Source: a virus
IMG/VR virus record: IMGVR_UViG_3300037010_000793
Location: 1 to 64,000 of that record
DNA: 64,000 nt
Reading direction: 5' to 3' (one strand)
Shown: piece by piece, positions 2,403 through 59,685 of the stretch
Layout of the letters: each line of letters opens with the position of its first letter
Position numbering within the stretch: the first letter of the stretch is position 1
Position numbers and translations under genes: made by a program
Notes under the pieces: generated by a model
Seen by the model: the letters and a program-made list of their open reading frames with translations, nothing else
The model's database searches: none
What the model was told of the DNA's origin: nothing

Positions 2403-3233
2403 TTAATTAAGTTGAATTGCAGAAGCAGTTATTTTAGTAGCACCGCTAGACGTTAGATTATTGGCGCTTGAATTTGTAGTAATATTACCGCCAACAGTTA
2501 ACGTACAATTTCCTGTAATATTTATATTCATGTCTGCACCAATTGTTATTGTTTGTGATCCACCAACAACATGTTTACCCTCACCAGTAACATGATTATA
2601 ATTTGATCCGCTAGTTCTATGTACAATGTCTCCGCTAGCTTGCATTTCGGTATATGTACCTGATTTATGCCAAACCATAATACGCTCATGACCTGGTGTA
2701 TCATCTAATTCAATAACGTGCCCTGATAACGTTTCTGTTACTTGATTATAAGGATATACAGCAGCATAAGAACTAGCGGGGAACCCGTTTGAAGTATCTT
2801 TATTAGCGTTAATAGTGCTTCCTAGATTTGCGCCTCTACCGAGCCGGTTTGTGTCAGGCTCACTCATTCTGCTTTTTATTGGTAGTTTACCAGTCTTGTC
2901 TTTAAATGTGTTAGGGTAGTTGCTGATTTGATCTGAGCTGATACCCTGAATAACTCCAGTGACTAATGGTATTTGTTGATCAACACCGTCAAGAAACGAT
3001 ACGGTTACAATAGATGAATTTTTCAATCCATGAATTGTTGTACCAATGCCAGTCACCCCGGCGCTTGTACATGGCATTTGCACCAAAGCCCATATTAAAT
3101 CATCATTTGATAGCTCGGTAGCATTTGATTCGTTAAAGCCGAATAATCTAACTTTAACTCTATTAGCCTTTAGCGGGTCATTAATATCTACAACGGTGCC
3201 CATGTATATTGAAAAGTCATTTGGTGTTATCAT
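2403..3233 (-). CDS. 5: Baseplate central spike protein gp5-like, no lysozyme domain
   Basis: A 276-residue protein. Residues 1-95 look like the gp5/VgrG OB-fold domain (MGTVVDINDPLKANRVKVRL, then TVSFLDGVDQQIPLVTGVIQ). The end is a short beta-helix spike with repeated glycine and threonine strands (residues about 205-260). T4 gp5 has 575 residues because a lysozyme domain sits between these parts. That domain is missing here, so the spike punctures without its own muralytic enzyme. The start overlaps the stop of the gp27-like gene by 4 bases (ATGA), implying translational coupling. gp5 and gp27 form the tail hub tip. Confidence 0.82.
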   Translation of the reverse strand: MITPNDFSIYMGTVVDINDPLKANRVKVRLFGFNESNATELSNDDLIWALVQMPCTSAGVTGIGTTIHGLKNSSIVTVSFLDGVDQQIPLVTGVIQGISSDQISNYPNTFKDKTGKLPIKSRMSEPDTNRLGRGANLGSTINANKDTSNGFPASSYAAVYPYNQVTETLSGHVIELDDTPGHERIMVWHKSGTYTEMQASGDIVHRTSGSNYNHVTGEGKHVVGGSQTITIGADMNINITGNCTLTVGGNITTNSSANNLTSSGATKITASAIQLN

Positions 3234-11025: not shown

Positions 11026-11062
11026 AAGTATCCCAAGTTAATTATACGATGCCCGAAGTTCA

Positions 11063-11125
11063 CAGGTTTAATCCAAAAAGAAAAGATATATATTTTATCA
11101 TCTAACTTGATTATAATTAAACCTG
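11063..11125. other. Long-loop inverted repeat before gp4
   Basis: A 10-base perfect inverted repeat (CAGGTTTAAT / ATTAAACCTG) encloses 43 AT-rich bases between two genes. It lies in the 110-base gap upstream of the gp4 gene. It could be a transcript hairpin or a regulator site. It loosely resembles the hairpin repeat at 27366 and 39464, though the loop is not conserved. Confidence 0.45.
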
Positions 11126-11136
11126 AGTGATTCTGT

Positions 11137-11762: not shown

Positions 11763-11858
11763 AGGATCTGTCGATTTTAATAAACCTCCTACTAAAATCA
11801 ACAACATTGCCAAACAGGAACAACGCTTGACTTGTTATTTTGTCGTCCTCGATTCTAT

Positions 11859-12794
11859 TTATACACCAAGAGCAGCTAGAATATCGTCAATAGAATCATC
11901 ACCAGAGCTTGTTGCTTTCACCTTCGGTGTGCTTGCTTTAGTAGGTACAACTGCCTCGTCTTCCCATGGTGGTACATCATCTTGATGTGTAGGTTGAGCT
12001 GGTTTTGCTTTGGTTGAAGGTGCAATAGTTTTTCCAGTAGCTTGCAACCACTTGTTAAAGTGAGGATCAGCGCCAAACACTTGAATCATAGCCTTAAGCT
12101 TTTCGTCATATGACTTGTTTTTACTAGGATCAACAAACATCGCGTTCAAATCTACAGCATGACTAAAGATTTCTTCAGTTTCTTCATCTGTCTTACCTAC
12201 GCTAGTAATCTTTTCTTCGAATACTGAATCATCATAGTTACGGTAACCTGCTAGGTTCTTAATTTTCATTCGGAAGTTTTTACCTTCGAATAAATCGAAC
12301 ACGTTATACGATTCGTCTTCAGCATACTCAGGGATTAACTGTGCTTTGATCTTATCTTGAATCTTAGTACCGTACTTAAGGATGAATACTTTACCTTCAT
12401 TTTCAGCATTGCCTGGATCGCGGACAACGTAGCAGTTAGCGTACATTGATGTATTTTGCTTCAGCTTTTGTTCTTTAGCTACATCTTCATTACCGTTTTT
12501 CCATAACCAGTTGATGTACTCCGCCATTGGATCTTCACGGCTACCAAAAGTACGAGCAGCTAGCTCTGAGTAAACTTTACCAGTAACTGGGTGTGTGAAA
12601 TAGTAGCTATATGTAGTTACATGAGGTAATTGGTTTAGATCTGGTTGAGGCAAGAATCGTAAAATTGCACTACCATTACCAGCTGAATCGACTGTTGCTT
12701 TCCAGAAATTACCACCAGAACGGGTTTCTTGTGTATTAGCCGCAGTTGTCATGTTGTTTAGAAGAGATTTCATTTGTTCACGAAGTTTTGACAT
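11859..12794 (-). CDS. 32: Single-stranded DNA-binding protein gp32-like
   Basis: 311 residues from ATG 12794 (MSKLREQMKS), chosen because AAAGGA stands 8 bases upstream; the frame is open for 24 more codons. Landmarks of T4 gp32 are clear: a basic N-terminus, the SYYFTHPVTGK block, TSMYANCYVVRDPGNAENEG followed by KVFILKYGTKI, NLAGYRNYDDSVF, and an acidic tail DDSIDDILAALGV like T4 DDLLNDL. It coats single strands during replication and repair. The zinc-binding His/Cys cluster of T4 gp32 has no counterpart: the segment between ELAARTFGSRED and TSMYANC contains no cysteine. Confidence 0.93.
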   Translation of the reverse strand: MSKLREQMKSLLNNMTTAANTQETRSGGNFWKATVDSAGNGSAILRFLPQPDLNQLPHVTTYSYYFTHPVTGKVYSELAARTFGSREDPMAEYINWLWKNGNEDVAKEQKLKQNTSMYANCYVVRDPGNAENEGKVFILKYGTKIQDKIKAQLIPEYAEDESYNVFDLFEGKNFRMKIKNLAGYRNYDDSVFEEKITSVGKTDEETEEIFSHAVDLNAMFVDPSKNKSYDEKLKAMIQVFGADPHFNKWLQATGKTIAPSTKAKPAQPTHQDDVPPWEDEAVVPTKASTPKVKATSSGDDSIDDILAALGV

Positions 12795-12904
12795 TTCATT
12801 TTCCTTTAATTTGCATTTTAATAGCATGTTTTTAACATAAATTGAATGATTAATAACCCAAATCAAACAAAGGGATTATGTGGGAAGAGCTATCTTCCCT
12901 ACTT

Positions 12905-12912
12905 TATTTATA
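12905..12912 (-). promoter_or_regulatory. T4-late-type promoter box TATAAATA
   Basis: TATAAATA on the minus strand, about 110 bases upstream of the gp32 start and directly after the previous gene. This is the T4 late -10 element recognised by the gp55-class factor. gp32 also may be read from elsewhere. A second TATAAATA overlaps the gp32 stop (11855-11862) but is followed by the terminator. Confidence 0.55.
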
Positions 12913-14069: not shown

Positions 14070-14618
14070 TTAAAAAAGCGTTGCACTAGGAGATACACCT
14101 TTAATCATTCGTTTGTTAGCCAATTCAGCCATCAAACGCTCTTTCATAGTTGGTGTAATTAATTCAGCAATGTCATACTCATCCATGTCTGTCGCAGTTT
14201 CAAGGTATGCTAATATTTTATCAAAGTTGGATAGCTCGATTGAGTCTGATACAGCATCTAAAATTGTTGATTCAAGATTAGCGCTGATGACGCTCTGTTG
14301 ATTTTTAATAGTAGCATATTTAATATCAAATGTATCATATACTTTCCAAACAGTTGCACGATCAATAACTTTAGAACCGATTCTAAATGGATTATCAATA
14401 GTGATGTCAAGATATTCAAACATCAATCCAATAACAACTTTATAATACAACTCAGTAATCATGTTTCGATTAACGACAATTAATGACGTGTCTGAAGGTC
14501 CAATAAACGATAAAGGGATACCGTCGATAACAACTTCATATTGCTTTGGATTGGTGCATGCATATACGTCGCCATTTACACCGTAGTTAGCTTTAATTAA
14601 GAATTCTAATGTAATCAT
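14070..14618 (-). CDS. Hypothetical protein in the RNase H cluster
   Basis: A 182-residue protein, unrecognised. It overlaps the zinc-ribbon gene upstream by 4 bases (ATGA), so the two are coupled. It has mixed alpha and beta composition, with DEYDIAELITPTMKERLMAE near the C-terminus. Confidence 0.8.
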   Translation of the reverse strand: MITLEFLIKANYGVNGDVYACTNPKQYEVVIDGIPLSFIGPSDTSLIVVNRNMITELYYKVVIGLMFEYLDITIDNPFRIGSKVIDRATVWKVYDTFDIKYATIKNQQSVISANLESTILDAVSDSIELSNFDKILAYLETATDMDEYDIAELITPTMKERLMAELANKRMIKGVSPSATLF

Positions 14619-21250: not shown

Positions 21251-21811
21251 TTATTGCCTATTTATCATTACTTTAGATAGAGCATGGTATAATTCTTCGC
21301 TGTAATCGATACCGTCATATAACTTAACAAAGCCGTCTAAATCGTTGTCAATAACCAGTTGCCTAGCTTTAGTTGAGGATACTGAGCTAACATCCGTTGC
21401 ATCTTGGTTTCTTTCACCGCTAGATATGATGCTGATAGACTCAAATGAATAAAACCCATGTTTAGCTTCTACACCATTGTACTTCGGTATCTGTCTATTA
21501 TGCTCAACTATTCTATCTGCACCAACTACCAAAGTGATATGTGTATATCCTTTAATGTATAGATAAACCAATGAGTCAAACATGTTATTAATAGCAATGT
21601 CTTCCACAATATTATTTTGGTATTCATTGAACATCAAACACATGAATTTTAGCTTATCATGATACGGTAATGGGTTTTTTGCGTTTTGTGTTGAGCTTGT
21701 GAATATTAACAAGTCTGAAGACGGTTCTGTGCTTGACATAAAATCAAACAAATGTAGATGTCCTTTGGTAGGTGGATTAAATCTACCAAAGGTGAATATT
21801 GCTTTATTCAT
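21251..21811 (-). CDS. NMNAT/cytidylyltransferase-like nucleotidyltransferase
   Basis: A 186-residue protein. FTFGRFNPPTKGHLHLFDF at residues 7-25 carries the TxGH form of the HxGH nucleotide-binding motif, and VSSVSSTKARQLV near residue 146 is the second (ISSTxxR) motif. This family includes nicotinamide-mononucleotide adenylyltransferase. In phages like KVP40, such a gene works with a NAMPT (as NatV with NadV). Here a NAMPT is 1.5 kb away, so NAD formation is a plausible role; a different nucleotide substrate is possible. No Nudix domain is fused, unlike KVP40 NatV. Confidence 0.75.
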   Translation of the reverse strand: MNKAIFTFGRFNPPTKGHLHLFDFMSSTEPSSDLLIFTSSTQNAKNPLPYHDKLKFMCLMFNEYQNNIVEDIAINNMFDSLVYLYIKGYTHITLVVGADRIVEHNRQIPKYNGVEAKHGFYSFESISIISSGERNQDATDVSSVSSTKARQLVIDNDLDGFVKLYDGIDYSEELYHALSKVMINRQ

Positions 21812-22040
21812 TAACCGCGTTAACCGCGTTAACTACATTTTTGTATTGTTTAATATGTTTAAGCATAAACTTGCGAGAAACAAACAACGCAATAATACTA
21901 ACACCAACAATCCAACTAGTTTCATATGAAATTACAACTATTGATCCGATAAAAACTAAAAGACCAAGTACACTTAATGATAAAAACGTTAATACAGATT
22001 TTTGTTGTTCATCTGTTAATTCTTCAATATCTACATGCAT
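21804..22040 (-). CDS. Small membrane protein (two TM)
   Basis: A 78-residue protein. It has an acidic N-terminus (MHVDIEELTDEQ), two membrane segments (about residues 20-35 and 40-55), and the C-terminus VVNAVNAVNE, encoded by a duplicated 9-base unit. It overlaps the nucleotidyltransferase gene by 8 bases. Function unknown. Confidence 0.7.
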   Translation of the reverse strand: MHVDIEELTDEQQKSVLTFLSLSVLGLLVFIGSIVVISYETSWIVGVSIIALFVSRKFMLKHIKQYKNVVNAVNAVNE

Positions 22041-22235
22041 TTAAAAGAACCCCATAATAACGCCAAGAGGAAATATAAAAACGCCAATTGCGCGAGCGAC
22101 AACTTCGCCTGTAAGCGCTTCAGCTCCAAATAAAGTAACAATGTTTGACACATATCCAAGCACGATCAATAATGCAATAGCCAAACCAATTACGGTAAAC
22201 GTAAACGGATTATAATTGCGTTGTTTCTTAAACAT
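22041..22235 (-). CDS. Small membrane protein (two TM)
   Basis: A 64-residue protein with a basic start (MFKKQRNYNPF) and two hydrophobic helices (FTVIGLAIALLIVLGYVS and ARAIGVFIFPLGVIMG). GGAGACGTTAG precedes the start. Likely inner membrane; function unknown. Confidence 0.7.
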   Translation of the reverse strand: MFKKQRNYNPFTFTVIGLAIALLIVLGYVSNIVTLFGAEALTGEVVARAIGVFIFPLGVIMGFF

Positions 22236-22377
22236 CTAACGTCTCCTTAAAGAATGTTTTATCTTTATGTTTAGCACCCTTAAACTTTTTAGGTGTTTCA
22301 ACTTTATGTTTAAATCTGCATGAATGAAAGAATTGTTTTTGAGCTAATTCGCATTCAATGCTTTTCTTCTTTTTCAT
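22228..22377 (-). CDS. Small basic protein
   Basis: 49 residues from ATG 22377 with AAGGAG 6 bases upstream; a longer frame upstream is just the end of the DUF3307-type gene. The sequence begins MKKKKSIECELAQKQFFHSC and is lysine rich (KFKGAKHKDKTFF). It overlaps the next gene by 8 bases. Not recognised. Confidence 0.7.
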   Translation of the reverse strand: MKKKKSIECELAQKQFFHSCRFKHKVETPKKFKGAKHKDKTFFKETLDV

Positions 22378-22391
22378 AATCAACTCCTTAG

Positions 22392-22814
22392 TTAGAGTTG
22401 ATCGACTCCAACTGTAATACAAACGAAATAATACGAAATAAACAAGTACATGGTATAATGTGCTAACTGATCTACGCCAATAGCTATCCAAAATTTATTA
22501 TCAGAGACAGCCAAACTGTTACTCTTGTTATAATTCATCTTAATATAATCAATGATATAATGCAAAACTGTATCAATTAACGCAAAAATACCAGCAACAA
22601 GCAACACAGTATTCACGTTTGGATTATGTAGCGCAAATACAGATACACCAATTAAAACTGCATAAGTAAACACACCATGATCTAGCGAGTGTTCAATACC
22701 ATCAGAGTTAAACAAAATACCTTTTCCTTTAACCATTGCATCAGTCTGAATCACCCAATCGCAGTACATATGCTTAACAAATAATGCAAACAACGTGATA
22801 ACTAAAATACCCAT
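22392..22814 (-). CDS. DUF3307-type membrane protein
   Basis: A 140-residue protein with three to four membrane segments. The pattern HSLDHGVFTYAVLIGVSVF, with IDTVLHYIIDYIKMNYN and FWIAIGVDQLAHYTMYLF, is typical of DUF3307 proteins, which conserve histidines and an ID..K motif in the membrane. Role unknown. It is followed by small membrane-protein genes, suggesting an envelope module. Confidence 0.8.
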   Translation of the reverse strand: MGILVITLFALFVKHMYCDWVIQTDAMVKGKGILFNSDGIEHSLDHGVFTYAVLIGVSVFALHNPNVNTVLLVAGIFALIDTVLHYIIDYIKMNYNKSNSLAVSDNKFWIAIGVDQLAHYTMYLFISYYFVCITVGVDQL

Positions 22815-22825
22815 ATAACCTCTAT

Positions 22826-23230
22826 TTACTTAATACTAGTCAAAGCAATAGCTGCTTTTTCATAAGCTGCGACTTTAGACTCGAGCGCTTTAATTCGAAC
22901 GGAATGCTTTGATATACGCTCAGCACAATGGTCTTCAATAATCATACGGTAGAAGGCGCCTAACCCAATCATTTTATTCACTTTAGGTGATGCAAAAGCG
23001 CAATCAGTAAAGGTAATAACATTGGTTGTGTGCATAATATCGATATAGACATAATTTAATGAATAAACGATATCGTAATTAACACCAACTTCGCGACGGA
23101 TACTAAATGAACATTTGTATCCTTGTATATCTGCTTGAAAATATACCAAACAGTCACCCATCGGTCTGCCTTTAAAGACATTTTTTACCGAAATTAAGTC
23201 TAGGTAGAAAGACTTTGCTGCTTGTTCCAT
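22826..23230 (-). CDS. Hypothetical protein
   Basis: 134 residues from ATG 23230 (MEQAAKSFYLDLISVKN), chosen because AAGAGG stands 9 bases upstream and the promoter at 23264-23292 lies within the longer frame. The C-terminal part IKALESKVAAYEKAAIALTS looks like a coiled coil. Not recognised. Confidence 0.75.
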   Translation of the reverse strand: MEQAAKSFYLDLISVKNVFKGRPMGDCLVYFQADIQGYKCSFSIRREVGVNYDIVYSLNYVYIDIMHTTNVITFTDCAFASPKVNKMIGLGAFYRMIIEDHCAERISKHSVRIKALESKVAAYEKAAIALTSIK

Positions 23231-23263
23231 TTCAAATAACCTCTTTTCATTTAATACGTGATT

Positions 23264-23292
23264 ATTATATACTGTTTGGACGCAATTGTAAA
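23264..23292 (-). promoter_or_regulatory. Early-type promoter (TTTACA-N17-TATAAT)
   Basis: Reads into the 134-residue gene and the following membrane genes. It lies just after the NAMPT terminator. Confidence 0.8.
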
Positions 23293-23302
23293 CTGTTTTC
23301 GT

Positions 23303-23340
23303 CATATTTTTAAAAGGAAAGGAAGCATTGCTTCCTTTCC
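23303..23340 (-). terminator. Rho-independent terminator after NAMPT gene
   Basis: Minus-strand stem GGAAAGGAAGC/GCTTCCTTTCC with AAT loop, then TTTTAAAAAT. Separates the NAMPT transcript from the promoter of the next gene. Confidence 0.88.
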
Positions 23341-23375
23341 TAACACGACTTTAGTTTTATAAAAAGTACTGCATA

Positions 23376-25064
23376 TCAGATCACGCTGTCGATCCTAGCT
23401 CGGATCTCATCAAATGTGCTGATGTTATAGAATAATCCATCTTCATACACTTTGACAAGAAGGCCTTGTTCTTCTTGTTCCGCGGATTGCTCATCAAAAA
23501 GAACAAGTTCATTGTCAACGCACTCAACACGAACAAGCCCTTTGGCTGATTTTTTAGTCCCATCATCAGTTTTAGGGTCTTTATTTAAGTTAATAGGTGC
23601 ACCATCTACGATTGCGTATGTAGCCTTAAGTGCCATACCCAATGTATCACGTGTGCTATAATTGTAAGTAAAGCTACCTGCAGCTACTATAACGTTGGTA
23701 CTTGCAAAGCCTTTTGCTTTTAGTCTATTGGTGATATCTAGTGCGCGCTTAACTGTGATGCTATCTCCATAAATCATGCCAATGTGACTGTCTAGTAAGC
23801 GATATCCTTTTTCTGTGATAGTACCGCCAAACGTTTCCCATAAGCATTCTACTGTACCTTTCATTTCCGGTGTAACTAACTCATCCTGAATAGGAGCAGA
23901 TAGAATACCTTCATCGGTAACAGTACATACCATATAGCTATTGGTATAAACCTCTAACTCTACGGTAGTGTTAACAAACACAAATGTGTTAACACTGGGG
24001 TTATTTTTAAACCAGCGCTCTACATCAGTTAGTGTTTTAACTGGAATAGCGATACCACAAATGATTTGAACAGGATCACCTGAATCTGGCCGAATGACTA
24101 CCTTTGACATTCCTAACGAATCGGGTGCTCGATTAAGAATATCTTCTTTTAGTCGAGGTACGATGTCAGTAATAACATTCCAGTAATCATAAGAATCACA
24201 TACCCGAGCAACAACACCTGAAGGGTAAACCTCGGTGATCAACCGCTTCATTTGAATATATTCTGCTTCATTCAATGAAATGTTGTTACGCTTAGCGATA
24301 GTTTGAATTGCTAAAGTCTCTGTCATATGCTCTGACGCATTAACAGATCCTGCGATGAATGACCCAAACGGTGCATTATAATAATCAACCACCATCGCAG
24401 TTGAACCGATAGCATCACTACCGTAAAAACACGTTAGATGGCACATACCTTGTCGAGCTGCATCAGCGCTACCAGACATACCTCGCGCACTAAAGTCATG
24501 GCATTGCCACTTTACAAAGCCAGTATTACCTACCGTTTCTATAGCAGCTGCAGTCAATAACCTGCGATAGGCTAGCGCGATGGTGGCATTGTTTACTGAT
24601 TTCCAGGTTTCATTTGAAATAACAGTCTCAAGGTAACCGGTAACCCAAGCAAAGTCTTTATGTGTGTTAATCATAGTCAAACCAGGGATCTTTGCCTTCA
24701 TAAGCGAACCCTCTTTTAGCGACTTAACTCTAATAGGAAGGTAACCTAGTTTGTGCAATGATACAATATGGCTATCATCGTATGATCCACCCGAAAAGTA
24801 GCAAACTTGTGAACGAAAGTTCTTCAACGCTGTTTCTACATCAACTTTAAAGAATTCACGTTCAAATGCATCATGAATCATTTTCATGGTAGCTTGAACA
24901 CCAAACCAAACCGCGTGATCATCTGTTAAGTTACGTGTTTCTTTTGGCAAGTGCTTAAAGCTACGTGGAGTGAATGTTTCATAGATATACTCAGTACCTG
25001 GAAACATCTGAGCTTTATGTGAAATTTTATATGAGTCGGCACTCATTAAAACATTATTAATCAT
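23376..25064 (-). CDS. nadV: Nicotinamide phosphoribosyltransferase family (NadV/NAMPT)
   Basis: A 562-residue protein, typical length plus a C-terminal extension. It has ADSYKISHKAQMFPGTEYIY near the start, HDFSARGMSGSADAARQGMC, PFGSFIAGSVNASEHMTETL (catalytic His), then VIRPDSGDP and ITVKRALDI. Standard function: PRPP plus nicotinamide to nicotinamide mononucleotide, the first step of NAD salvage. Related phage enzymes in the NARP1 pathway use ADP-ribose pyrophosphate instead; I cannot tell which substrate from sequence. A NMNAT-like gene and a PRPP synthetase gene in the same window support salvage. It has its own terminator and a leader hairpin. Confidence 0.93.
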   Translation of the reverse strand: MINNVLMSADSYKISHKAQMFPGTEYIYETFTPRSFKHLPKETRNLTDDHAVWFGVQATMKMIHDAFEREFFKVDVETALKNFRSQVCYFSGGSYDDSHIVSLHKLGYLPIRVKSLKEGSLMKAKIPGLTMINTHKDFAWVTGYLETVISNETWKSVNNATIALAYRRLLTAAAIETVGNTGFVKWQCHDFSARGMSGSADAARQGMCHLTCFYGSDAIGSTAMVVDYYNAPFGSFIAGSVNASEHMTETLAIQTIAKRNNISLNEAEYIQMKRLITEVYPSGVVARVCDSYDYWNVITDIVPRLKEDILNRAPDSLGMSKVVIRPDSGDPVQIICGIAIPVKTLTDVERWFKNNPSVNTFVFVNTTVELEVYTNSYMVCTVTDEGILSAPIQDELVTPEMKGTVECLWETFGGTITEKGYRLLDSHIGMIYGDSITVKRALDITNRLKAKGFASTNVIVAAGSFTYNYSTRDTLGMALKATYAIVDGAPINLNKDPKTDDGTKKSAKGLVRVECVDNELVLFDEQSAEQEEQGLLVKVYEDGLFYNISTFDEIRARIDSVI

Positions 25065-30314: not shown

Positions 30315-30989
30315 TTACATATAGAACTGAACTACTTGATTAGGGTCTTTAACATCGCCTTTACCAACTGGGATAAACTCAAAACCTGCAGCACCAAATA
30401 CAATATCACCAATATGTACACAGGTCTTACCGCTATGGTCTGTTGTTAGGTTAAAATGAGCCAGCTCTTCATCAGTATCGTCATTCACAACTTTAACATA
30501 CGCATTTTTAATCATACCTAAATGATGTTGACGTTCCATTGCCTTATGAACAAAGCAATAAACTGCTACTGTCTTATCACCTGGTTGACGCTTATCATAG
30601 TCAACAATACCGAATTCGTCTTCACCAGTACCATCATCTTCACCAGTTTGATTATCTTTTGGAATTGCAATAGTAGAAGAGCGTAGAAGTTCTTCTTTCT
30701 GTTCTTCAGTCATCGCTTTTAAATCTGCTTTTGTTACTGACTTTGGATAGTATTGATTGTTAAAAAATACTACTTTATTAGGTGCAATGACTTTACCTGC
30801 GTTATTGAGCACGAACATGAATAAGTCTAAATCAAAACCTTTTGTCTTATCTGCTGAAAATACTGGATGCATCTCCCAGTTAGTGATTAAACGTAAACGA
30901 GTTAGAGCTGGAAACTCTTTAGCCAAGTCTAATACAAAACCAACTTCATGTTGCTTTTCTAAATCTAGCATAAAAATTCCTTGTGACAT
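30315..30989 (-). CDS. terD: TerD-family stress protein
   Basis: A 224-residue protein. SADKTKGFDLDLFMFVLNN near residues 46-64 is the TerD calcium-binding pattern (FDLDLxxF), followed by KVVFFNNQYYP, then a longer insert and RQPGDKTVAVYCFV. TerD proteins bind calcium and belong to the tellurite/phage-resistance Ter systems. It is last in a four-gene Ter-like set, ending at a terminator. The insert with GEDDGTGEDE carries extra acidic residues. Confidence 0.88.
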   Translation of the reverse strand: MSQGIFMLDLEKQHEVGFVLDLAKEFPALTRLRLITNWEMHPVFSADKTKGFDLDLFMFVLNNAGKVIAPNKVVFFNNQYYPKSVTKADLKAMTEEQKEELLRSSTIAIPKDNQTGEDDGTGEDEFGIVDYDKRQPGDKTVAVYCFVHKAMERQHHLGMIKNAYVKVVNDDTDEELAHFNLTTDHSGKTCVHIGDIVFGAAGFEFIPVGKGDVKDPNQVVQFYM

Positions 30990-31075
30990 GTTAATTGTTC
31001 CTTAAATTGTTAAAACTTTATTGAATATCTTGTAATGTTAATTAATACAGAATAAACACTTATTTCATTTGATTA

Positions 31076-32107
31076 TCAATTAGTAGATTCTTCTTGACGA
31101 TTGTCGAACGCTGAGTGAATAACACTAGCAATAATAATACTAACAGAAGTCAATGCGATCATATAGTCAGGGATTTCTAAGAACGGTTCCATCATAATCG
31201 ATGCCGATAGGAATCCAATAGACCAGAATGCGCCAGTTTCAAGGTATTGATACGTTTTGAGTGTACCAGTTGCATCTAACATAACTGTCATAGATCGAAC
31301 AAACATTGCGCCAATACCTAATCCAGCAGCAATAACGAATACGTTAGACGAGATAGCGAAGGAAGCTAATACACCATCAGCAGAGAATGCGGAATCTAAG
31401 ATTTCAATATAGATGAATGTTCCAAGACCTGCTTTTGCTACAGTTCCAGCCGTATTTGCAGTTGCTTCATCAGTTGCACCTTCTAACAAGTGCTTAATAA
31501 TCTCAATAACGACAAAGGCAATCATACCAGCTAATGCCGCCATAAAGAATTCATGCCCACCATGTTCCATATTCAGCGATACTAAGTATGATAATGAGCC
31601 GACAATCATAGCTTGTACCATATCAAGTGATCCAATAGCAGCTAATGGTTTTTCGATTGGTACAAGCCAGAACTCATCACGTTCTTTATCCATGAAGAAG
31701 CTCAAGAACACCATTGATAAGAACGCGCCACCAAAACCAGCTACCATAGAATGCGAACTAATTAATGTATGTTCAAACTGGGTAGGGTTTGTTAACGCCC
31801 AATCAAGAGCAGTTGACATCGATACATCACCGACAATTGATACAATTCCAATAGGAAACAGTACTCGCATACCGATTACTGCAATAAAGATACCAACGTA
31901 TAAGAACATTTTCTTCCAGAAGATGCTCATTTTACTTAGCTGTGCTGCGTTAACCACCGCGTTGTCAAACGAAAGGGCAATTTCAATAACCGCCAATGTT
32001 AACACCGTGCCTAATAAAAGCAGGCTGCCTGTCTCAATATACACTGCGCTAAGCGCTACAATTGCAAAGATAATTGATCCGCTAAAATACTTAATTAAAG
32101 TATTCAT
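31076..32107 (-). CDS. terC: TerC-family membrane protein (DUF475)
   Basis: A 343-residue protein with about nine membrane segments. LAVIEIALSFDNAVVNA near residues 38-54 and EILDSAFSADGVLASFAIS near 239-257 are the paired acidic TerC/DUF475 motifs within the membrane. TerC is a membrane metal-ion exporter or anchor associated with TerD. The gene has its own promoter and sits between terD and the VWA gene. Confidence 0.9.
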   Translation of the reverse strand: MNTLIKYFSGSIIFAIVALSAVYIETGSLLLLGTVLTLAVIEIALSFDNAVVNAAQLSKMSIFWKKMFLYVGIFIAVIGMRVLFPIGIVSIVGDVSMSTALDWALTNPTQFEHTLISSHSMVAGFGGAFLSMVFLSFFMDKERDEFWLVPIEKPLAAIGSLDMVQAMIVGSLSYLVSLNMEHGGHEFFMAALAGMIAFVVIEIIKHLLEGATDEATANTAGTVAKAGLGTFIYIEILDSAFSADGVLASFAISSNVFVIAAGLGIGAMFVRSMTVMLDATGTLKTYQYLETGAFWSIGFLSASIMMEPFLEIPDYMIALTSVSIIIASVIHSAFDNRQEESTN

Positions 32108-32275
32108 TTTTATTTCCTATTTGTTTAAATGTTTATGAAAGAATTACTTTTACATCTTCGTGAGAATAAAGTTAGGTGTAAATTAAGTCATGATAGATTT
32201 TGTCAATGTTATGTTCATTACCGTCATTTAATGACTTAATCTTCATTTCCTTCATGCTCGCTAAATATATAATAC

Positions 32276-32304
32276 ACTATATCCTAACTAGCTTAGAATG
32301 TAAA
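32276..32304 (-). promoter_or_regulatory. Early-type promoter (TTTACA-N17-TATAGT)
   Basis: Reads from the end of the VWA gene into terC, about 170 bases upstream of its ATG. Confidence 0.6.
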
Positions 32305-32307
32305 CAG

Positions 32308-32994
32308 TTATTTCTTTGTCCAAGTCAAAAACTTAGAAGAAGCTAAATCATCGTAGAATGTATCAGGTAAAACGTTCATTGGGTTTTTGTAGTGAATAAA
32401 ACCAACGTTGCTATACTCATCAGCTAAACCGTTTAAGAAACGGGTATTAACATCGTTACCGATACCAATAAATTGCACAAACGTGTCTTTATTAGCACGT
32501 GTTAAGAACTCATTAACAATAAGTTGATCATGTTGAGGCGTATCACCGTCTGTGATAATGACTAATAGCGCTCCAGTGCTAACAGATACTTCCTTCTTAC
32601 CGAATAAACTTCCAAATAATGATTTCTTCGGTTTAGCTAAACCATACATATTTTCAAAGATTGGATAGAATAGCGTGCCACCATCAGCTAAATTACCATA
32701 TTGTTTCATATATTTGCCAAAATCTTTTGATGTTGCACTCGACGCTTCTTTAAATGAAGTATTGAAGAAACCAACATCAATAGAGCCGTTATCATCAAAC
32801 TTCATACCAGACACGATCATCATATCTACGATATATTCAACGAAACCAGATGAAAATTCGTCACGCATTGATCCTGATCGATCGATTGCAATGCGAACTT
32901 CTAATTTTGGTAATTGAGAAAGATCAAATCCGCTTTTTTCTAAGCTAAGTGAAAACGTCTCTTCAGTTTTACCGAGATCCAGTGTGAATGACAT
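32308..32994 (-). CDS. VWA-domain protein (TerY/TerF-like)
   Basis: A 228-residue protein with the MIDAS site AIDRSGSMRDEF (D38, S40, S42), then NLADGGTLFYPI (threonine of MIDAS) and VIITDGDTP near residue 151. Ter operons often carry VWA proteins. It probably binds a divalent metal and a partner, as the Ter complex does. Confidence 0.85.
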   Translation of the reverse strand: MSFTLDLGKTEETFSLSLEKSGFDLSQLPKLEVRIAIDRSGSMRDEFSSGFVEYIVDMMIVSGMKFDDNGSIDVGFFNTSFKEASSATSKDFGKYMKQYGNLADGGTLFYPIFENMYGLAKPKKSLFGSLFGKKEVSVSTGALLVIITDGDTPQHDQLIVNEFLTRANKDTFVQFIGIGNDVNTRFLNGLADEYSNVGFIHYKNPMNVLPDTFYDDLASSKFLTWTKK

Positions 32995-33015
32995 ATTTGT
33001 GTTCCTTTTAATAAG

Positions 33016-34188
33016 TTAAAGTGTTAAACCCGTTGCAGTAGAGCGTGCACCTGTTGCAGTTGATTTATTTTGTAATTGGTTCAAGTATTCAATTTGTGAC
33101 GATTGCATCATAATAGCATCCTGTTCACGTTGCAATTTTGCATTAGCTTCAGTTGTCTGAACACCTGAAATAGTATCAAGCATTGCGCTTCGAATGTGAC
33201 TAAGCGTATCGTTGCTGATGACACTAGTATTCAAGCTGGCAGCTGCAGTTAGCGCGCTGTTTTTCGCATTCGTAGCTCCTGTTTGAATTGTCTGATTAAT
33301 AATATCTTTAACGCTGTTATTGAACATATTAGACTCATCAGAATCTAAAGAGTGCATATACATAACAAATTGCAATTTCAAATCGGGAATAACTGCAATT
33401 ACTTCGCGCATAGCCGAAACAGTAGCGAGTGATGTCTGCTGCTTAGAACGAATCAGAGGAGCGTTATTCTCAGTAACAATTTTACGTCGTTCTAAGTTGT
33501 CAAGTTTAATCTCGATGCTATTCAACCTGACTTCCATATCACGCAGGTATTGTGCTTTAATCATAGACTGCGGATCTGCTGGATCGATCGGCGGAATATT
33601 AGCAATAAAATCAATTTGGTATTGCTTCCATTCTTTTACTTTTTCGATTAGCTCATGAATATACAGATGATTCGCATAATTTTCTTTATACAGATTCTCT
33701 AAATCCTGAATCCAGATATTATGTTTTGTCATATGTGTTTGAATATCGCTAGCAACACCGTCAAAAACAGTATCAGCGTCTTTCAATCGCTTAGTTAGCT
33801 CGGTTTTAACATCAACAACAGTTCTATTAAACCAGTTGATAATTTTACCTAATCCCTTTGGTTGTAAATCATTTGCAATATTAGCAGGATCTAACCGACC
33901 ATGTACTGCACTCATGCGAGACATAATTTCACCAAGCTCATTAAATTTCTGCATTGATACAGCTGAGATAATCTTCTCAGTTGTCGCAGATACGCGAGAA
34001 TTTGCGTCTGCTCCTAAGCTTTCAATATCTTGCTCTGTAATAAGCTCGCTTTGAATCAGAGGAGTGTGATCTTTAGCAACAATAACTTTTGTTAAATTAT
34101 TTGTTGCAGCGCTTACTGTCAGACTAGGCTTATCATGAGTTGCGATAACAACCTCGTTTGAAGATAACCAGTCAAATTCATCAGCCAT
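33016..34188 (-). CDS. telA: TelA/KlaA-type toxic-anion resistance protein
   Basis: A 390-residue helical protein. LGKIINWFNRTVVDVKTELT and KDADTVFDGVASDIQ, then LENLYKENYANHLYIHELIE and MEVRLNSIEIKLDNLERRKI are typical TelA features. TelA family members relate to tellurite resistance and cell-envelope stress. It is the first gene of the Ter-like set. Confidence 0.85.
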   Translation of the reverse strand: MADEFDWLSSNEVVIATHDKPSLTVSAATNNLTKVIVAKDHTPLIQSELITEQDIESLGADANSRVSATTEKIISAVSMQKFNELGEIMSRMSAVHGRLDPANIANDLQPKGLGKIINWFNRTVVDVKTELTKRLKDADTVFDGVASDIQTHMTKHNIWIQDLENLYKENYANHLYIHELIEKVKEWKQYQIDFIANIPPIDPADPQSMIKAQYLRDMEVRLNSIEIKLDNLERRKIVTENNAPLIRSKQQTSLATVSAMREVIAVIPDLKLQFVMYMHSLDSDESNMFNNSVKDIINQTIQTGATNAKNSALTAAASLNTSVISNDTLSHIRSAMLDTISGVQTTEANAKLQREQDAIMMQSSQIEYLNQLQNKSTATGARSTATGLTL

Positions 34189-35079: not shown

Positions 35080-35707
35080 TTAACACACCTAATTGATAAG
35101 CGTACGATGGAGATTTCTGAGAAAAGAATTCAAATGGCTTCACTGTTTGCGTTTGTGTATCCATGCAGATGAAGTCATTTGTGCTGACTTTGCGGGAAAA
35201 CTTGTAAATCACCCCGTCAAGCACAGAACCGTTAGACTCTTCCTCACTAATTAAACATAATGTTTCGCGATTAAACTCACGAAACAATGTTGCTATAAAC
35301 TCAATTGATAGTTTAACATTGCCATTATCACAATACGAATCGAAACGTGTTAAGTATACATTTTTAGCGTAATGGATACCATCTTCAAACATGTACTTAC
35401 CGCCAATAATGTATACAGTTTCAAATATATCATGAGCTTTAACAACCATTAGCGCTTCTTTGATGCTACGGTATACTTCGTGGCCTCTAACGTCTTCGCG
35501 TTTTGCTGTAGAACTGATAATAATCATTCGACGATTATGTAGATCATTTGGTAAAGATTTAAAGGTATTCAAACCCATTAACACAGTTTTACCATTGGTC
35601 ATATTCTTAAAATGATTCAAATCAATACGTGACTTAACGCATAAATCATTTGAACCAGTGCCGATATACCCATCATTATCAACGGATAATATTAAATTCA
35701 CTTGCAT
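35072..35707 (-). CDS. frd: Dihydrofolate reductase
   Basis: A 211-residue protein. It has the family pattern: LILSVDNDGYIG, SRIDLNHFKNMTNGKTVLMG, SLPNDLHNRRMIIISST and ETVYIIGGKYMFEDGIHY. It regenerates tetrahydrofolate consumed by thymidylate synthase, whose gene ends 9 bases upstream. It is longer than bacterial DHFR (about 160) by a C-terminal extension. Confidence 0.93.
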   Translation of the reverse strand: MQVNLILSVDNDGYIGTGSNDLCVKSRIDLNHFKNMTNGKTVLMGLNTFKSLPNDLHNRRMIIISSTAKREDVRGHEVYRSIKEALMVVKAHDIFETVYIIGGKYMFEDGIHYAKNVYLTRFDSYCDNGNVKLSIEFIATLFREFNRETLCLISEEESNGSVLDGVIYKFSRKVSTNDFICMDTQTQTVKPFEFFSQKSPSYAYQLGVLNV

Positions 35708-35716
35708 GGTAATCTC

Positions 35717-36616
35717 CTAAACTGCCATCTTAATGTTTTCAGCGCCTAAAGTAGGACCCTTAACACAATTTGAAACTACAATGTCTGACCACTGTGTAGA
35801 CAGCACATCTTGTAGAGTTTTTATCTCTTTATCTTCCTTAACATCGCATATAGGCTCGTTAAGATATGCAGCTGCACCGCGACAATGATAGTCTAATAAC
35901 TCATCGACAATTGGCTGCTGGTTTTCATAGTAGTGTGCATTTGCTACATTAAGACGAATATTGCCCATTTTATAACCAAGCGCTCGACTAAACAACAACA
36001 ACCAAAAGAAGCTAAAAGCTAAATTATAAGGCGCTCCGTACGGGTAGTCGTTTGATCTAGATGTAACATCCAAATTCAATACCCCGTTAATATACACAAA
36101 GTTATATGCATAAAAACAAGGTTCAAGAGCCATATCATTTTTATCGTTTGGATTCCAGATAGAAATTACATATCGGCGTGAGGTTGGATTATCGCGAAGA
36201 CCTTCAAACACTTCCTTTACTTGGTCAGTTACACCGCCAAATGATCTAAACTGGTAACCATAAGCTCGACCAATGTTATTTTCAGGTGTATCAAGCATTC
36301 CCCTTGAGTCAAGAAACTCTCTAGTTGAATTACCGTCCCAGATATGAATATTCTTTTCCTGAAGTTCAGTAACGTCAGTTGAACCTCGAAGCATCCACAT
36401 CAACTCTTCAAACGCAATACGTGGTGCAAATGAACGGCATTGAATAAACGGAGCATACTTATTTTGTGTATGAAAGCGAGTTGTAAGACCAAACATTTGC
36501 TTGCTTCTACCTACTGACGTTCTATCGCTTTGCCATTCGCCCATGGTGTTAATAACATGTAAATTCAATAAGTAGACATGTTCAACCACATTGTTGTTTG
36601 CGTAATATGCCAGCAT
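35717..36616 (-). CDS. td: Thymidylate synthase
   Basis: A 299-residue protein. Catalytic Cys167 is in EPCFYAYNF. It has RGSTDVTELQEKNIHIWDGN and SRSNDYPYGAPYNLAFSFFW, keeping Asn198, which in thymidylate synthase selects uracil. T4 gp42 has Asp there, so this is not a dCMP hydroxymethylase. The Cys is followed by Phe instead of the usual His. It makes dTMP for a DNA-rich phage. The ATG overlaps the PRPP synthetase stop (TAATG). Confidence 0.92.
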   Translation of the reverse strand: MLAYYANNNVVEHVYLLNLHVINTMGEWQSDRTSVGRSKQMFGLTTRFHTQNKYAPFIQCRSFAPRIAFEELMWMLRGSTDVTELQEKNIHIWDGNSTREFLDSRGMLDTPENNIGRAYGYQFRSFGGVTDQVKEVFEGLRDNPTSRRYVISIWNPNDKNDMALEPCFYAYNFVYINGVLNLDVTSRSNDYPYGAPYNLAFSFFWLLLFSRALGYKMGNIRLNVANAHYYENQQPIVDELLDYHCRGAAAYLNEPICDVKEDKEIKTLQDVLSTQWSDIVVSNCVKGPTLGAENIKMAV

Positions 36617-37470
36617 TATGAGCTCATTTCGTTATAACATAAAACATCATCATACATGCTAAGAGCTTCTATACCCTTAGAGTAGATACCATGCGTTGTC
36701 CATAGAATAGTGCGATCACCTGGTTTTAATTGATGTTTAAACGCGTCATGTAAAGCAATAAAAGTACCACCGCCATCGCAAATGTCATCAACAACCAAAA
36801 CAGTCTTTGCTAAATCACTTGAAAAATCAGGAACGATAATCGATTCAATCTTACCTGTTATATAATCACGTCGTTTAACAGCTTGAATTAATGTAACATC
36901 ATAATTGTGACTGACTAGAACATTTGCAATCTTCTCAGTTTTCTTAGATGCACCATTGTCTGGTGAAATTAGTACAACTCGTTTTTCAGTTAAGCTCAGT
37001 TTGTTATAATAAAACGAATGATCAAACGCTCGCTCTTGGCTTAGTACGTTTAGAACACCTACCTTAAACATTCCAGCTAGTACATCGCTATGAGGATCTG
37101 CTACTGTAATTGTTTTAAAACCAATGTTATTAATCAAATTAGCATACACTAATAAACCATAAGACTCGCCGCTAATTTCTGTTCGGTCTTGACGAGCAGC
37201 AGGGAAATAAGGCATATTAAGATGGATATCAACTTTGGGTTGCACTCGTTTAATAGCATCATAAATTAATGATAAACTTGTGATATCGTCAGACCCGCTG
37301 AATTTACAGTATACATCAACATAATCAAATAATTCAAACGATGGGTTTCCGCTTAACCAATTAGGCACAGTTACTTTAACCTGTAATTCACCTGCAGGGA
37401 ACTTAATTAGTTCAAATGGCATGGAATGTATAGTGGACCCTTCATACATAATATAGATTGCTTTAATCAT
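36616..37470 (-). CDS. Ribose-phosphate pyrophosphokinase-like
   Basis: A 284-residue protein (bacterial PrsA about 315). It has MPYFPAARQDR, TVADPHSDVLAGMF, LISPDNGASKKTEKIANVL and the PRPP loop VLVVDDICDGGGTFIAL. It makes PRPP from ribose-5-phosphate and ATP, which feeds NAMPT and nucleotide synthesis. The NARP1 enzyme Adps has the same fold and makes ADP-ribose pyrophosphate, so that role is an alternative. It is translationally coupled to thymidylate synthase. Confidence 0.87.
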   Translation of the reverse strand: MIKAIYIMYEGSTIHSMPFELIKFPAGELQVKVTVPNWLSGNPSFELFDYVDVYCKFSGSDDITSLSLIYDAIKRVQPKVDIHLNMPYFPAARQDRTEISGESYGLLVYANLINNIGFKTITVADPHSDVLAGMFKVGVLNVLSQERAFDHSFYYNKLSLTEKRVVLISPDNGASKKTEKIANVLVSHNYDVTLIQAVKRRDYITGKIESIIVPDFSSDLAKTVLVVDDICDGGGTFIALHDAFKHQLKPGDRTILWTTHGIYSKGIEALSMYDDVLCYNEMSS

Positions 37471-37759: not shown

Positions 37760-37788
37760 ATTATAATACATGTATGCTCATAAGTAAA
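37760..37788 (-). promoter_or_regulatory. Early-type promoter (TTTACT-N17-TATAAT)
   Basis: Reads into the small basic gene and the nucleotide-metabolism operon (PRPP synthetase, TS, DHFR). Confidence 0.8.
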
Positions 37789-37805: not shown

Positions 37806-38570
37806 TTAAAATGGATCGGATTTATCTATCATATCAGCAATCCTTACACTAGTAACATCAACAATCTTACATGTTACCATCTCAACTGTGATGGTGTTAA
37901 TGGTTTCTGTTGAAATATCAACAATACTAATTTTACCAGTTCTATAAAATCCAGTGTCTAAGAATATTTGCTTGCCCATCTTTTTAGGCTCTTTGACAAT
38001 AGTATGACCAGTGAATAAGTAATCAATTCCTATAACATCAACTTCAATCTTAGCAGAATGAACCAAACGACCCCAAATAAAACCTTGTGCGCAGAATGTA
38101 TCTCTTGCGTCGTAAGCGCTGGTAATCTCATCCCAATATTCAATATTAGCAGGTAGCTCAGCGTGAACGATGCCATATTTGCGATTATTAAATTCAATAT
38201 CGATTGCGCTAGGTAATTCGTTGATGATTGATTGAAGGTGTCTAACAACTTTAACCTTGTGCGGTAATCCGCTGGTAAGCATGTCATATACCCACTTGTT
38301 ACCATTACCTACATTACCAAAGTATTCATTAAGGATCATCAGCTCGTGATTGCCAATCACTGTCTTAAACCAGGGGCATTTATATAAACTAATTGATAGG
38401 ACATTATCAGTTCCTCGATCGACAACATCACCTACACAGAATAGACGGTCTTTTTCATAATCAAATTTAATATGATCTAGCGCAGCTATCAGTTCCTCAT
38501 AGCAACCGTGAATATCACCACAAACATAATCTTTACCGTCTACATTTTCATAGTAAGATTCTAATTTCAT
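37806..38570 (-). CDS. PPP-type metallophosphatase
   Basis: A 254-residue protein with the three core motifs: GDIHG (18-22), GDVVDRG (47-53) and GNHE (73-76), then HAELP and GHT motifs later. Relatives are lambda PP and Ap4A hydrolase. It removes phosphate from proteins or dinucleotides. T4 lacks this one, but several large phages carry it. It lies just downstream of the sigma factor. Confidence 0.9.
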   Translation of the reverse strand: MKLESYYENVDGKDYVCGDIHGCYEELIAALDHIKFDYEKDRLFCVGDVVDRGTDNVLSISLYKCPWFKTVIGNHELMILNEYFGNVGNGNKWVYDMLTSGLPHKVKVVRHLQSIINELPSAIDIEFNNRKYGIVHAELPANIEYWDEITSAYDARDTFCAQGFIWGRLVHSAKIEVDVIGIDYLFTGHTIVKEPKKMGKQIFLDTGFYRTGKISIVDISTETINTITVEMVTCKIVDVTSVRIADMIDKSDPF

Positions 38571-38582
38571 GTTAATCCTTAT

Positions 38583-39407
38583 CTAAGCAACTAAGTGCGA
38601 TAATTGACTTCGCAACTTCTTTACAACTGTTCTAAAAATTTCATCAACCCGCTGATGGCTAACGCCTAGCTCAATAGCAATCTCTTTTAGAGTCATTTTA
38701 TCTTCATCAATTAAACGTTTTTGAATTACAAACCGCTCCCGCTCATTGAATTTATCTAACGCGCCGTGAACTTTGTTGAGAATATTAAGTTCATTGTCTT
38801 CTGTTATCGCAATTGATTCAGGGTTAGAGTCAAAATCAGGAACCTCAACTACCGTTTCTTCATTGTCATATAGTTGATATGTTGATTCAATTTTAGCGCT
38901 TAATCTAATATCCATCTCAATTACATCTTCTACTTTTACGTTCAATTGAGCAGCAATCTTATTAGCGTCTTCAATCGTAATTGGAAGATTGCTTTTCTTT
39001 AGCGATTTTAGATTGAAGAAAAGCTTTTGTTGTGATTTAGTAGTAGCGATCTTCATAATATGAACATTGTTCAAAATATAATCATACAGTTCAGCTTTAA
39101 CGTAGTAACCAGCAAAGGTCATTAACCGGACACCTTGCATTGGGTTAAACTTCCTAACTGCTTTCATTAAGCCAATTGAACCTTCTTGAATTAGATCAAT
39201 AAGCGGTAAGTTATACCCTTTAAAGAGCGATGCAATTGTGATAATATTCTTGAGATTATGAATTACTAGCTTCTCTGCAGCAAATAAATCATTATTTGTG
39301 ATATAACGATTAGCTAACGAATATTCTTCATCTTTAGATAGATCAGGGAAGGATTTGATATGTGCAATATACTGATTATTTTCAGATTGAATGGTTATTG
39401 AGCTCAT
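38583..39407 (-). CDS. Sigma factor of the RpoH (sigma32) type
   Basis: A 274-residue protein, about E. coli RpoH size (284). Region 1.2 to 2: IAHIKSFPDLSKDEEYSLAN, DLIQEGSIGLMKAVRKFNPM and RLMTFAGYYVKAELYDYI. The RpoH box QQKLFFNLK is at 126-134. Region 4 helix-turn-helix: ERERFVIQKRLI then TLKEIAIELGVSHQRVDEIF. The E. coli degradation-control residues L47, A50 and I54 align with L, A and V here. T4 gp55 is shorter and lacks this box. It may direct phage late or middle transcription or exploit host heat-shock promoters. Confidence 0.92.
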   Translation of the reverse strand: MSSITIQSENNQYIAHIKSFPDLSKDEEYSLANRYITNNDLFAAEKLVIHNLKNIITIASLFKGYNLPLIDLIQEGSIGLMKAVRKFNPMQGVRLMTFAGYYVKAELYDYILNNVHIMKIATTKSQQKLFFNLKSLKKSNLPITIEDANKIAAQLNVKVEDVIEMDIRLSAKIESTYQLYDNEETVVEVPDFDSNPESIAITEDNELNILNKVHGALDKFNERERFVIQKRLIDEDKMTLKEIAIELGVSHQRVDEIFRTVVKKLRSQLSHLVA

Positions 39408-39463
39408 TTTGCTTTCCTATTACTTGCTTATCTTTAATTATAACCTATCAAATCTTGTCTCTA

Positions 39464-53195: not shown

Positions 53196-53708
53196 TTAGC
53201 AGTTATTATCATTTTGAGTGTATGGTGACTGAGCTTTAATAGTCTCAATACAGCTAGCAATCAATAATTTATGATTTTTCCACCATTTTAACGCGTATGG
53301 GTGCATCTTCTGAATCTTTTTGTCTGAGAAGTTTAGCCACTCTTCATGACTGTAATGAAGATTACCAACGCGAACACTATCTGTATAGATATACGTCTCC
53401 CAACCTTGAAGATTAATGATAATAAGAGCAACGCCACGGAGGTCTGCGTTGTGAAGGTTTACACAACGGAGGTCTGCTCCTCGGACGTCTGCTTTGCGAA
53501 GGTCTGCTCCTCGAAGATTTACTCCTTCGAGGTCTACATTACGAAGATCTACATTACGAAGATCAGCTCCGCCGAGGTCTACGTAGCGAAGGTCTAGACC
53601 TCGAAGATCCGCTTTACGAAGGTTCGCACGAACACCACCTTCTTTACCTTCTAACCATAGCTTATGTAATTTAATGATTTCATTTAACTGTTGTTGAGTT
53701 AATTTCAT
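53196..53708 (-). CDS. Pentapeptide-repeat protein
   Basis: A 170-residue protein. Residues about 30-95 are a run of pentapeptide repeats with central leucine (ADLRGLDLRYVDLGGADLRN), forming a right-handed helix. Some such proteins mimic DNA and protect gyrase. The C-terminal part is not repeated (YSHEEWLNFSDKKIQKMHPY). It has its own promoter. Confidence 0.9.
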   Translation of the reverse strand: MKLTQQQLNEIIKLHKLWLEGKEGGVRANLRKADLRGLDLRYVDLGGADLRNVDLRNVDLEGVNLRGADLRKADVRGADLRCVNLHNADLRGVALIIINLQGWETYIYTDSVRVGNLHYSHEEWLNFSDKKIQKMHPYALKWWKNHKLLIASCIETIKAQSPYTQNDNNC

Positions 53709-59656: not shown

Positions 59657-59685
59657 ATTATAACATAACTCCAGACAAAAGTATA
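59657..59685 (-). promoter_or_regulatory. Early-type promoter, leader class A
   Basis: TATACT-N17-TATAAT followed by ACTCATAAGTTAAAC. Reads into the acidic gene. Confidence 0.85.

Follow-up and report, generated by a model that had tools for sequence, protein, structure and literature searches.

Phages depend on host chaperones for assembly and have to cope with the proteases of the host, yet a heat-shock sigma factor carried by a phage has rarely been reported. T4 gp55 (phrog_234), a short protein without an RpoH box, is a phage-encoded sigma factor used with the host core polymerase. T4 also interferes with sigma32, via mrh and srh (PMC6070864), and Srh is annotated as a postulated sigma32 decoy. 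Bacillus phages carry sporulation sigma factors (ELDg169, SP10 g120), which are host-derived accessory proteins that can steer a host regulon (PMC9429907). The general strategy thus has precedents in T4 and in Bacillus phages. A phage homologue of RpoH is also known already, gp39 of Salicola phage SCTP-2 (MF360958), annotated as 'RNAP sigma-32 factor-like protein'. In the open-access papers that we searched, we found no experimental study of a phage RpoH homologue.

Here we describe a gene for an RpoH-type sigma factor in a window of 64,000 nucleotides from an IMG/VR virus record. Like gp55, its product is a phage-encoded sigma factor that would be used with the host core polymerase; the two are encoded by different genes in these phages. 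With the Bacillus phage proteins it would share the role of a host-derived accessory sigma factor, but sigma group, host phylum and regulon are different (PMC9429907). Its best match in sequence and fold is E. coli RpoH (sigma32, structure 8hkc), with which it shares the RpoH box, K130 and L47/A50 at approximately 40% identity, whereas E265, R268 and Q269 are changed in the phage protein. SCTP-2 gp39 likewise has the RpoH box and occurs in a phage with gp55, but it is only 32% identical to the window protein, keeps E, R and Q at these three positions and comes from a 440-kb jumbo phage of a halophile.

New here, judging from the sequences, are the co-occurrence of RpoH and gp55 in five lineages (gp55 of the window phage being deduced from a close relative, G001), the multiple captures of rpoH and the changed -35 helix. 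Our preferred reading, to which we assign a probability of roughly 45%, is that a T4-superfamily phage took the gene from a proteobacterial rpoH and that its product acts as an accessory sigma factor of the early region, directing host core polymerase to a relaxed RpoH-like promoter set that includes the heat-shock set but is not exclusive to it. RpoH in phages with gp55, its -35 helix changed in two of them, offers a test of heat-shock takeover versus a new phage regulator, and the phage variants are natural material for work on how promoter choice shifts in a sigma factor.

Results and Discussion

A full-length RpoH-type sigma factor gene

The features of the gene and its surroundings are as follows.

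38583 to 39407, minus strand: gene for an RpoH-type (sigma-32 subfamily) sigma factor of 274 amino acids, assigned by profiles, structure match, tree and fold
39006 to 39032, minus strand: RpoH box QQKLFFNLK, residues 126-134 of the translation, aligned with E. coli positions 132-140
38625 to 38660, minus strand: -35 recognition helix of region 4.2, SHQRVDEIFRTV, residues 250-261, with E265Q, R268D, Q269E and E271F
39413 to 39418, minus strand: AGGAAA, resembling a ribosome-binding site, before the rpoH ATG (read from the sequence)
39437 to 39442, minus strand: TATAAT, a -10-like box 30 bases before the rpoH ATG, in the context AGGTTATAAT shared with some of the phage's early promoters, with no good -35
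37806 to 38570, minus strand: gene for a NinI-like serine/threonine phosphatase (phrog_246, E 1.4e-53)
37760 to 37788, minus strand: TTTACTT-N16-TATAAT, a promoter of the early sigma70 type that lies downstream of the phosphatase gene

A single open reading frame starting with the ATG at 39407 encodes the full-length protein of 274 residues; it runs on the minus strand, which the original prediction had not specified. It scored 253 bits with the sigma-32 subfamily model NF005143, above the curated cut-off of 241. With the RpoH equivalog model TIGR02392 it reached 252.7 bits (E 4.7e-75), below the cut-off of 323.1; 39 of 100 proteobacterial genomes likewise had no match above it. Both Sigma70_r2 (PF04542) and Sigma70_r4 (PF04545) of Pfam exceeded their cut-offs, and the protein has a complete region 4. 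A search of solved structures ranked E. coli RpoH (8hkc) first (E 1.2e-51) and RpoS a distant second (5e-22). The AlphaFold model had a mean pLDDT of 77.6, with most of regions 2 and 4 exceeding 80, and a fold search with it ranked sigma32 (8hkc_E) first (E 9.4e-16); the TM-score was low owing to the free orientation of the domains, so the fold match backs domain identity only. The late-sigma profile of gp55 (phrog_234) did not match the protein. The original prediction, an alignment with full-length RpoH including QQKLFFNLK and a complete region 4, was thus confirmed by profiles, phylogeny and fold.

The gene lies in an early-type region with genes for DHFR, thymidylate synthase, Prs and the phosphatase and with many early promoters. 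The phosphatase gene begins 12 bases past the rpoH stop codon and is probably co-transcribed with rpoH. AAAGGAA/AGGAA is enriched upstream of genes. No RNA thermometer or other Rfam family was detected in the window at gathering score. The composition of rpoH (GC 0.336, GC3 0.295) is close to that of the contig's other genes (0.360 and 0.302). We rejected host contamination or a prophage edge as an unlikely source of the gene, given its phage-like composition and its position within an array of phage genes only.

Origin of the gene

A place in a known phage late-sigma clade would have spoken against the original prediction. In a maximum-likelihood tree, the window protein instead fell within the RpoH clade with support of 100/100 against the RpoS/RpoD-like rows, and on the beta/gammaproteobacterial side of that clade (99/97). 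Its branch is very long (2.57, compared with a median of 0.36). In the same tree, RpoH of the phage record G002 (IMGVR_UViG_3300025012_000028) joined that of the deltaproteobacterial Geobacteraceae, and RpoH of G157 joined a gammaproteobacterial one.

A single phage clade comprising the window protein, G002, L188 and L189 was rejected by the AU test (p 3e-5), while the window protein and G002 alone as a clade were not rejected (p 0.33). A pairing of the window protein with SCTP-2 in a quick tree was set aside, as both have long branches. On the strength of the AU rejection of the four-row clade, the trees indicate that rpoH was captured by phages more than once; the donor of the window copy is uncertain.

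Membership in the RpoH clade, together with a retained K130 and RpoH box, would also be expected of a recently acquired, unmodified host rpoH that simply switches on the host heat-shock regulon. We consider this very improbable, given the long branch, an identity to the bacterial RpoH proteins found of 43% at most, and the change of three invariant residues in the -35 helix.

Residues kept and residues changed

We compared the phage protein with 69 bacterial RpoH proteins, using E. coli numbering. The E. coli sequence behind this numbering agrees with the aligned stretch from the 8hkc search over residues 17-282. The phage protein keeps D77-E81 (the core-binding stretch of region 2.2), A111, T128-T129-K130 and KLFFNL. 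Its box differs from Q(R/K)KLFFNLR by two changes, both outside the KLFFNL core. In E. coli sigma32, K130 has a role in extended -10 reading. Near the -10 side we also found W108Y and W121V. Overall, the -10 side appears mostly RpoH-like.

In contrast, the residues that read the -35 element in the RpoH family, E265, R268 and Q269, are replaced by Q, D and E in the phage protein. At these three positions and at 271, all 69 bacterial proteins have E, R, Q and E; the phage has F at 271. E265 and R268 align with E585 and R588 of sigma70. There, the substitutions E585Q, which is the counterpart of E265Q, and R588H make reading at -33 less specific (PMC2613000). By this analogy, the -35 side of the phage protein looks altered in the direction that relaxes reading in sigma70. 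With three invariant residues missing from this helix, the notion that heat-shock promoter reading was plainly retained became doubtful. Taken with W121V/R122H and the length of the branch, the helix changes could point to another class of promoters or to a weakly active protein.

L47, A50 and I54 act in the control of degradation of E. coli sigma32. The original prediction called them almost kept, which understated the case: L47 and A50 are kept, and V, found in the phage at position 54, is the commonest bacterial residue there (52 of 69). This suggests that the phage protein may still be unstable and under chaperone, FtsH and SRP control.

Keeping the core-binding and degradation-control residues without the -35 reading residues would suit a competitor. 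Such a protein would draw core polymerase away from host sigma factors, or tie up chaperones and FtsH and thereby stabilize host RpoH, its own promoter reading being minor. The postulated decoy role annotated for T4 Srh points the same way. A pure competitor, however, would be expected to lose region 4 and the -10 determinants; here region 4 is full-length and most -10 determinants are present, which makes this explanation improbable for the window protein. Such a loss has perhaps occurred in G159, whose rpoH is split downstream of the RpoH box.

The phage has a relative with gp55

The window record is a fragment (76,844 bases) of a T4-superfamily myovirus genome. It encodes gp6, gp25 and gp5-, gp26-, gp4-, gp2-, gp32-, gp13-, ligase- and RNase H-like proteins of this superfamily. 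Relevant features are:

250 to 1989, minus strand: gp6-like baseplate wedge subunit (phrog_219, E 1.2e-94), overlapping the start of G001
11859 to 12866, minus strand: gp32-like single-strand DNA binding protein, a T4-superfamily marker (phrog_224, E 9.8e-66; T4 gp32, E 1e-33)
14070 to 14618, minus strand: gp33-like late co-activator, a weak C-terminal match (phrog_254, E 1.9e-5, residues 118-175)
2519 to 2526, minus strand: exact late box TATAAATA before the gp25-like gene
11856 to 11863, minus strand: exact late box TATAAATA before the gp2-like gene
12905 to 12912, minus strand: exact late box TATAAATA before gp32

G001 (81,961 bases) starts inside gp6, where the window record ends, and the two overlap by 936 bases at 91.6% identity. 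It supplies the missing half of a T4-type genome, with terminase, portal, capsid, sheath, uvsW, gp55, gp47 and gp46, and also carries uvsX, nrd genes, gp45, regA, gp44 and gp62. Its gp55 (35834-36400; phrog_234, E 1.7e-23) is located as usual, between uvsW and gp47/gp46. Queries with Nampt and TelA yielded no close relatives of the right-hand half of the window record.

No gp55 was found on the 76.8-kb window contig itself, as would be the case if RpoH had replaced gp55 as the late sigma factor, a replacement that the original prediction had implied. The record is a fragment, so the absence says nothing, and judging from G001 the window phage probably has gp55 as well. With gp55 and gp45 in G001, a weak gp33-like gene in the window, TATAAATA boxes before late genes, and gp55 in every other RpoH-bearing phage record long enough to judge, we rejected RpoH in place of gp55, an idea that is hardly credible. 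Gene content and boxes indicate that the T4-superfamily late transcription system (gp55/gp33/gp45 and TATAAATA) is present in the lineage of the window phage, the gp33-like match being weak.

Two promoter classes are visible on the phage

On the window contig and G001, two elements were enriched upstream of genes in gene direction. One is an early sigma70-type pair, TTTACTTTT and TGTTATAAT, the latter observed 15 times against 0.6 expected. The other is the late box TATAAATA, with 12 occurrences against 4.3 expected, which precedes the portal, capsid, sheath and tube genes.

The original prediction had also considered an RpoH-like factor for the phage's own genes. Use of RpoH-type promoters by these genes was not supported: the RpoH consensus CTTGAA-N12-17-CCCCAT did not exceed chance upstream of phage genes at any mismatch level (in one example, 8 instances against 6.3±2.6 by chance). 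CTTGAA is absent from the upstream regions of both contigs, and the six phage records searched contained no exact RpoH promoters (spacer 12-16).

We also weighed a dedicated phage sigma factor for a small set of middle-type promoters of the phage, where the -35 element co-evolved with the altered helix or where an activator or the -10 element alone serves. All three -35 residues are changed while the rest of the sigma factor is kept, G002, which has gp55, is changed at the same three positions (to Q, M and E), and, by the criteria of our promoter search, neither an early nor a late box stands immediately before middle-type genes such as gp45 and uvsX. Nevertheless, C-rich -10 elements were not enriched, and k-mer counting and an EM motif search after masking of early and late boxes revealed no third promoter class, although one with only few members would escape such a search. 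The sole residual EM motif, ATAAGTTAA, lies directly downstream of the early promoter -10, in the start region. We regard a dedicated middle sigma factor as somewhat unlikely.

An early-promoter sub-family of G000 (e.g. 59657-59685, 65119-65148 and 69699-69727) has a common TATACTTTTGTCTGGA..TATGTTATAATAYYCATAAGTTAAACA extending into the transcript start.

RpoH beside gp55 in other phages

We scanned IMG/VR for sequences that could encode the RpoH box, using a strict pattern that gives a lower bound, and found at least eight stretches, two of which are probably edges of bacterial chromosomes. RpoH and gp55 occur together in G002 (214 kb), G157 (90 kb), G159 (363 kb) and Salicola phage SCTP-2 (440 kb). 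Two further records, just 17 and 20 kb long, contain RpoH but no gp55. As both genes are present in all records long enough, RpoH appears to be an extra sigma factor in phages that have gp55.

G002 resembles the window phage in its RpoH-type sigma factor, in having gp55 elsewhere and in the -35 helix changes, but its RpoH lacks approximately 20 residues after the RpoH box and its gene is just upstream of gp47/gp46. SCTP-2, G157, L189 and L191 retain E, R and Q in the helix. It is possible, and we propose it tentatively, that T4-superfamily phages have repeatedly captured rpoH beside sigma70 and gp55, and that some have re-engineered the -35 helix for a separate phage programme or a host-stress sub-regulon programme.

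Under our preferred reading of the window protein as an accessory sigma factor, it would, alongside sigma70 and gp55, bind the core RNA polymerase of the host through the kept region 2.2 and RpoH box. It would then read RpoH-like -10 or extended -10 elements, with a relaxed or altered demand on the -35 element. From early to middle infection, part of the host polymerase would be steered to promoters that overlap the heat-shock regulon without equalling it. The targets would be host promoters, that is, those of chaperone and protease genes and others with a matching -10. Host promoters are more likely as targets than phage promoters, since we saw neither RpoH-type promoters nor any other third class on the phage.

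Additional observations

In G002 (C1:203748-209300; L024, L003), rpoH occupies the place that gp55 has in G001, and gp55 is found elsewhere, after uvsW. RpoH of G159 (C1:106094-106608; L190, L285) is split into 143 amino acids with region 2 and the RpoH box, and 54 amino acids with region 4 in another frame; the split may be real or a sequencing error.

The window carries a tellurite-resistance-type cluster (30315-34188) as in several large phages. It encodes a TerD-like-looking phrog_5698 protein, a TerC-like membrane protein (31076-32107), a VWA/TerY-looking protein (32308-32994) and a TelA-like toxic anion resistance protein (33016-34188). A NAD-salvage set (21251-25064 and 36616-37470) comprises a cytidyltransferase/NMNAT-like protein, nicotinamide phosphoribosyltransferase and ribose-phosphate pyrophosphokinase, and possibly counters NAD-depleting defences. 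A pentapeptide-repeat protein encoded in the early region (53196-53708) is possibly a DNA mimic.

In G001, nrdA (71680-75415) is interrupted by an open reading frame for a T4 mob-like homing endonuclease (73354-74313). A dispersed repeat of approximately 75 bases occurs at 11055-11132 of the window, at G000:C1:75462-75536 and at 35675-35752 and 33176-33253 of G001. It is 87-96% identical between the two contigs and lies in intergenic gaps, once directly before gp55.
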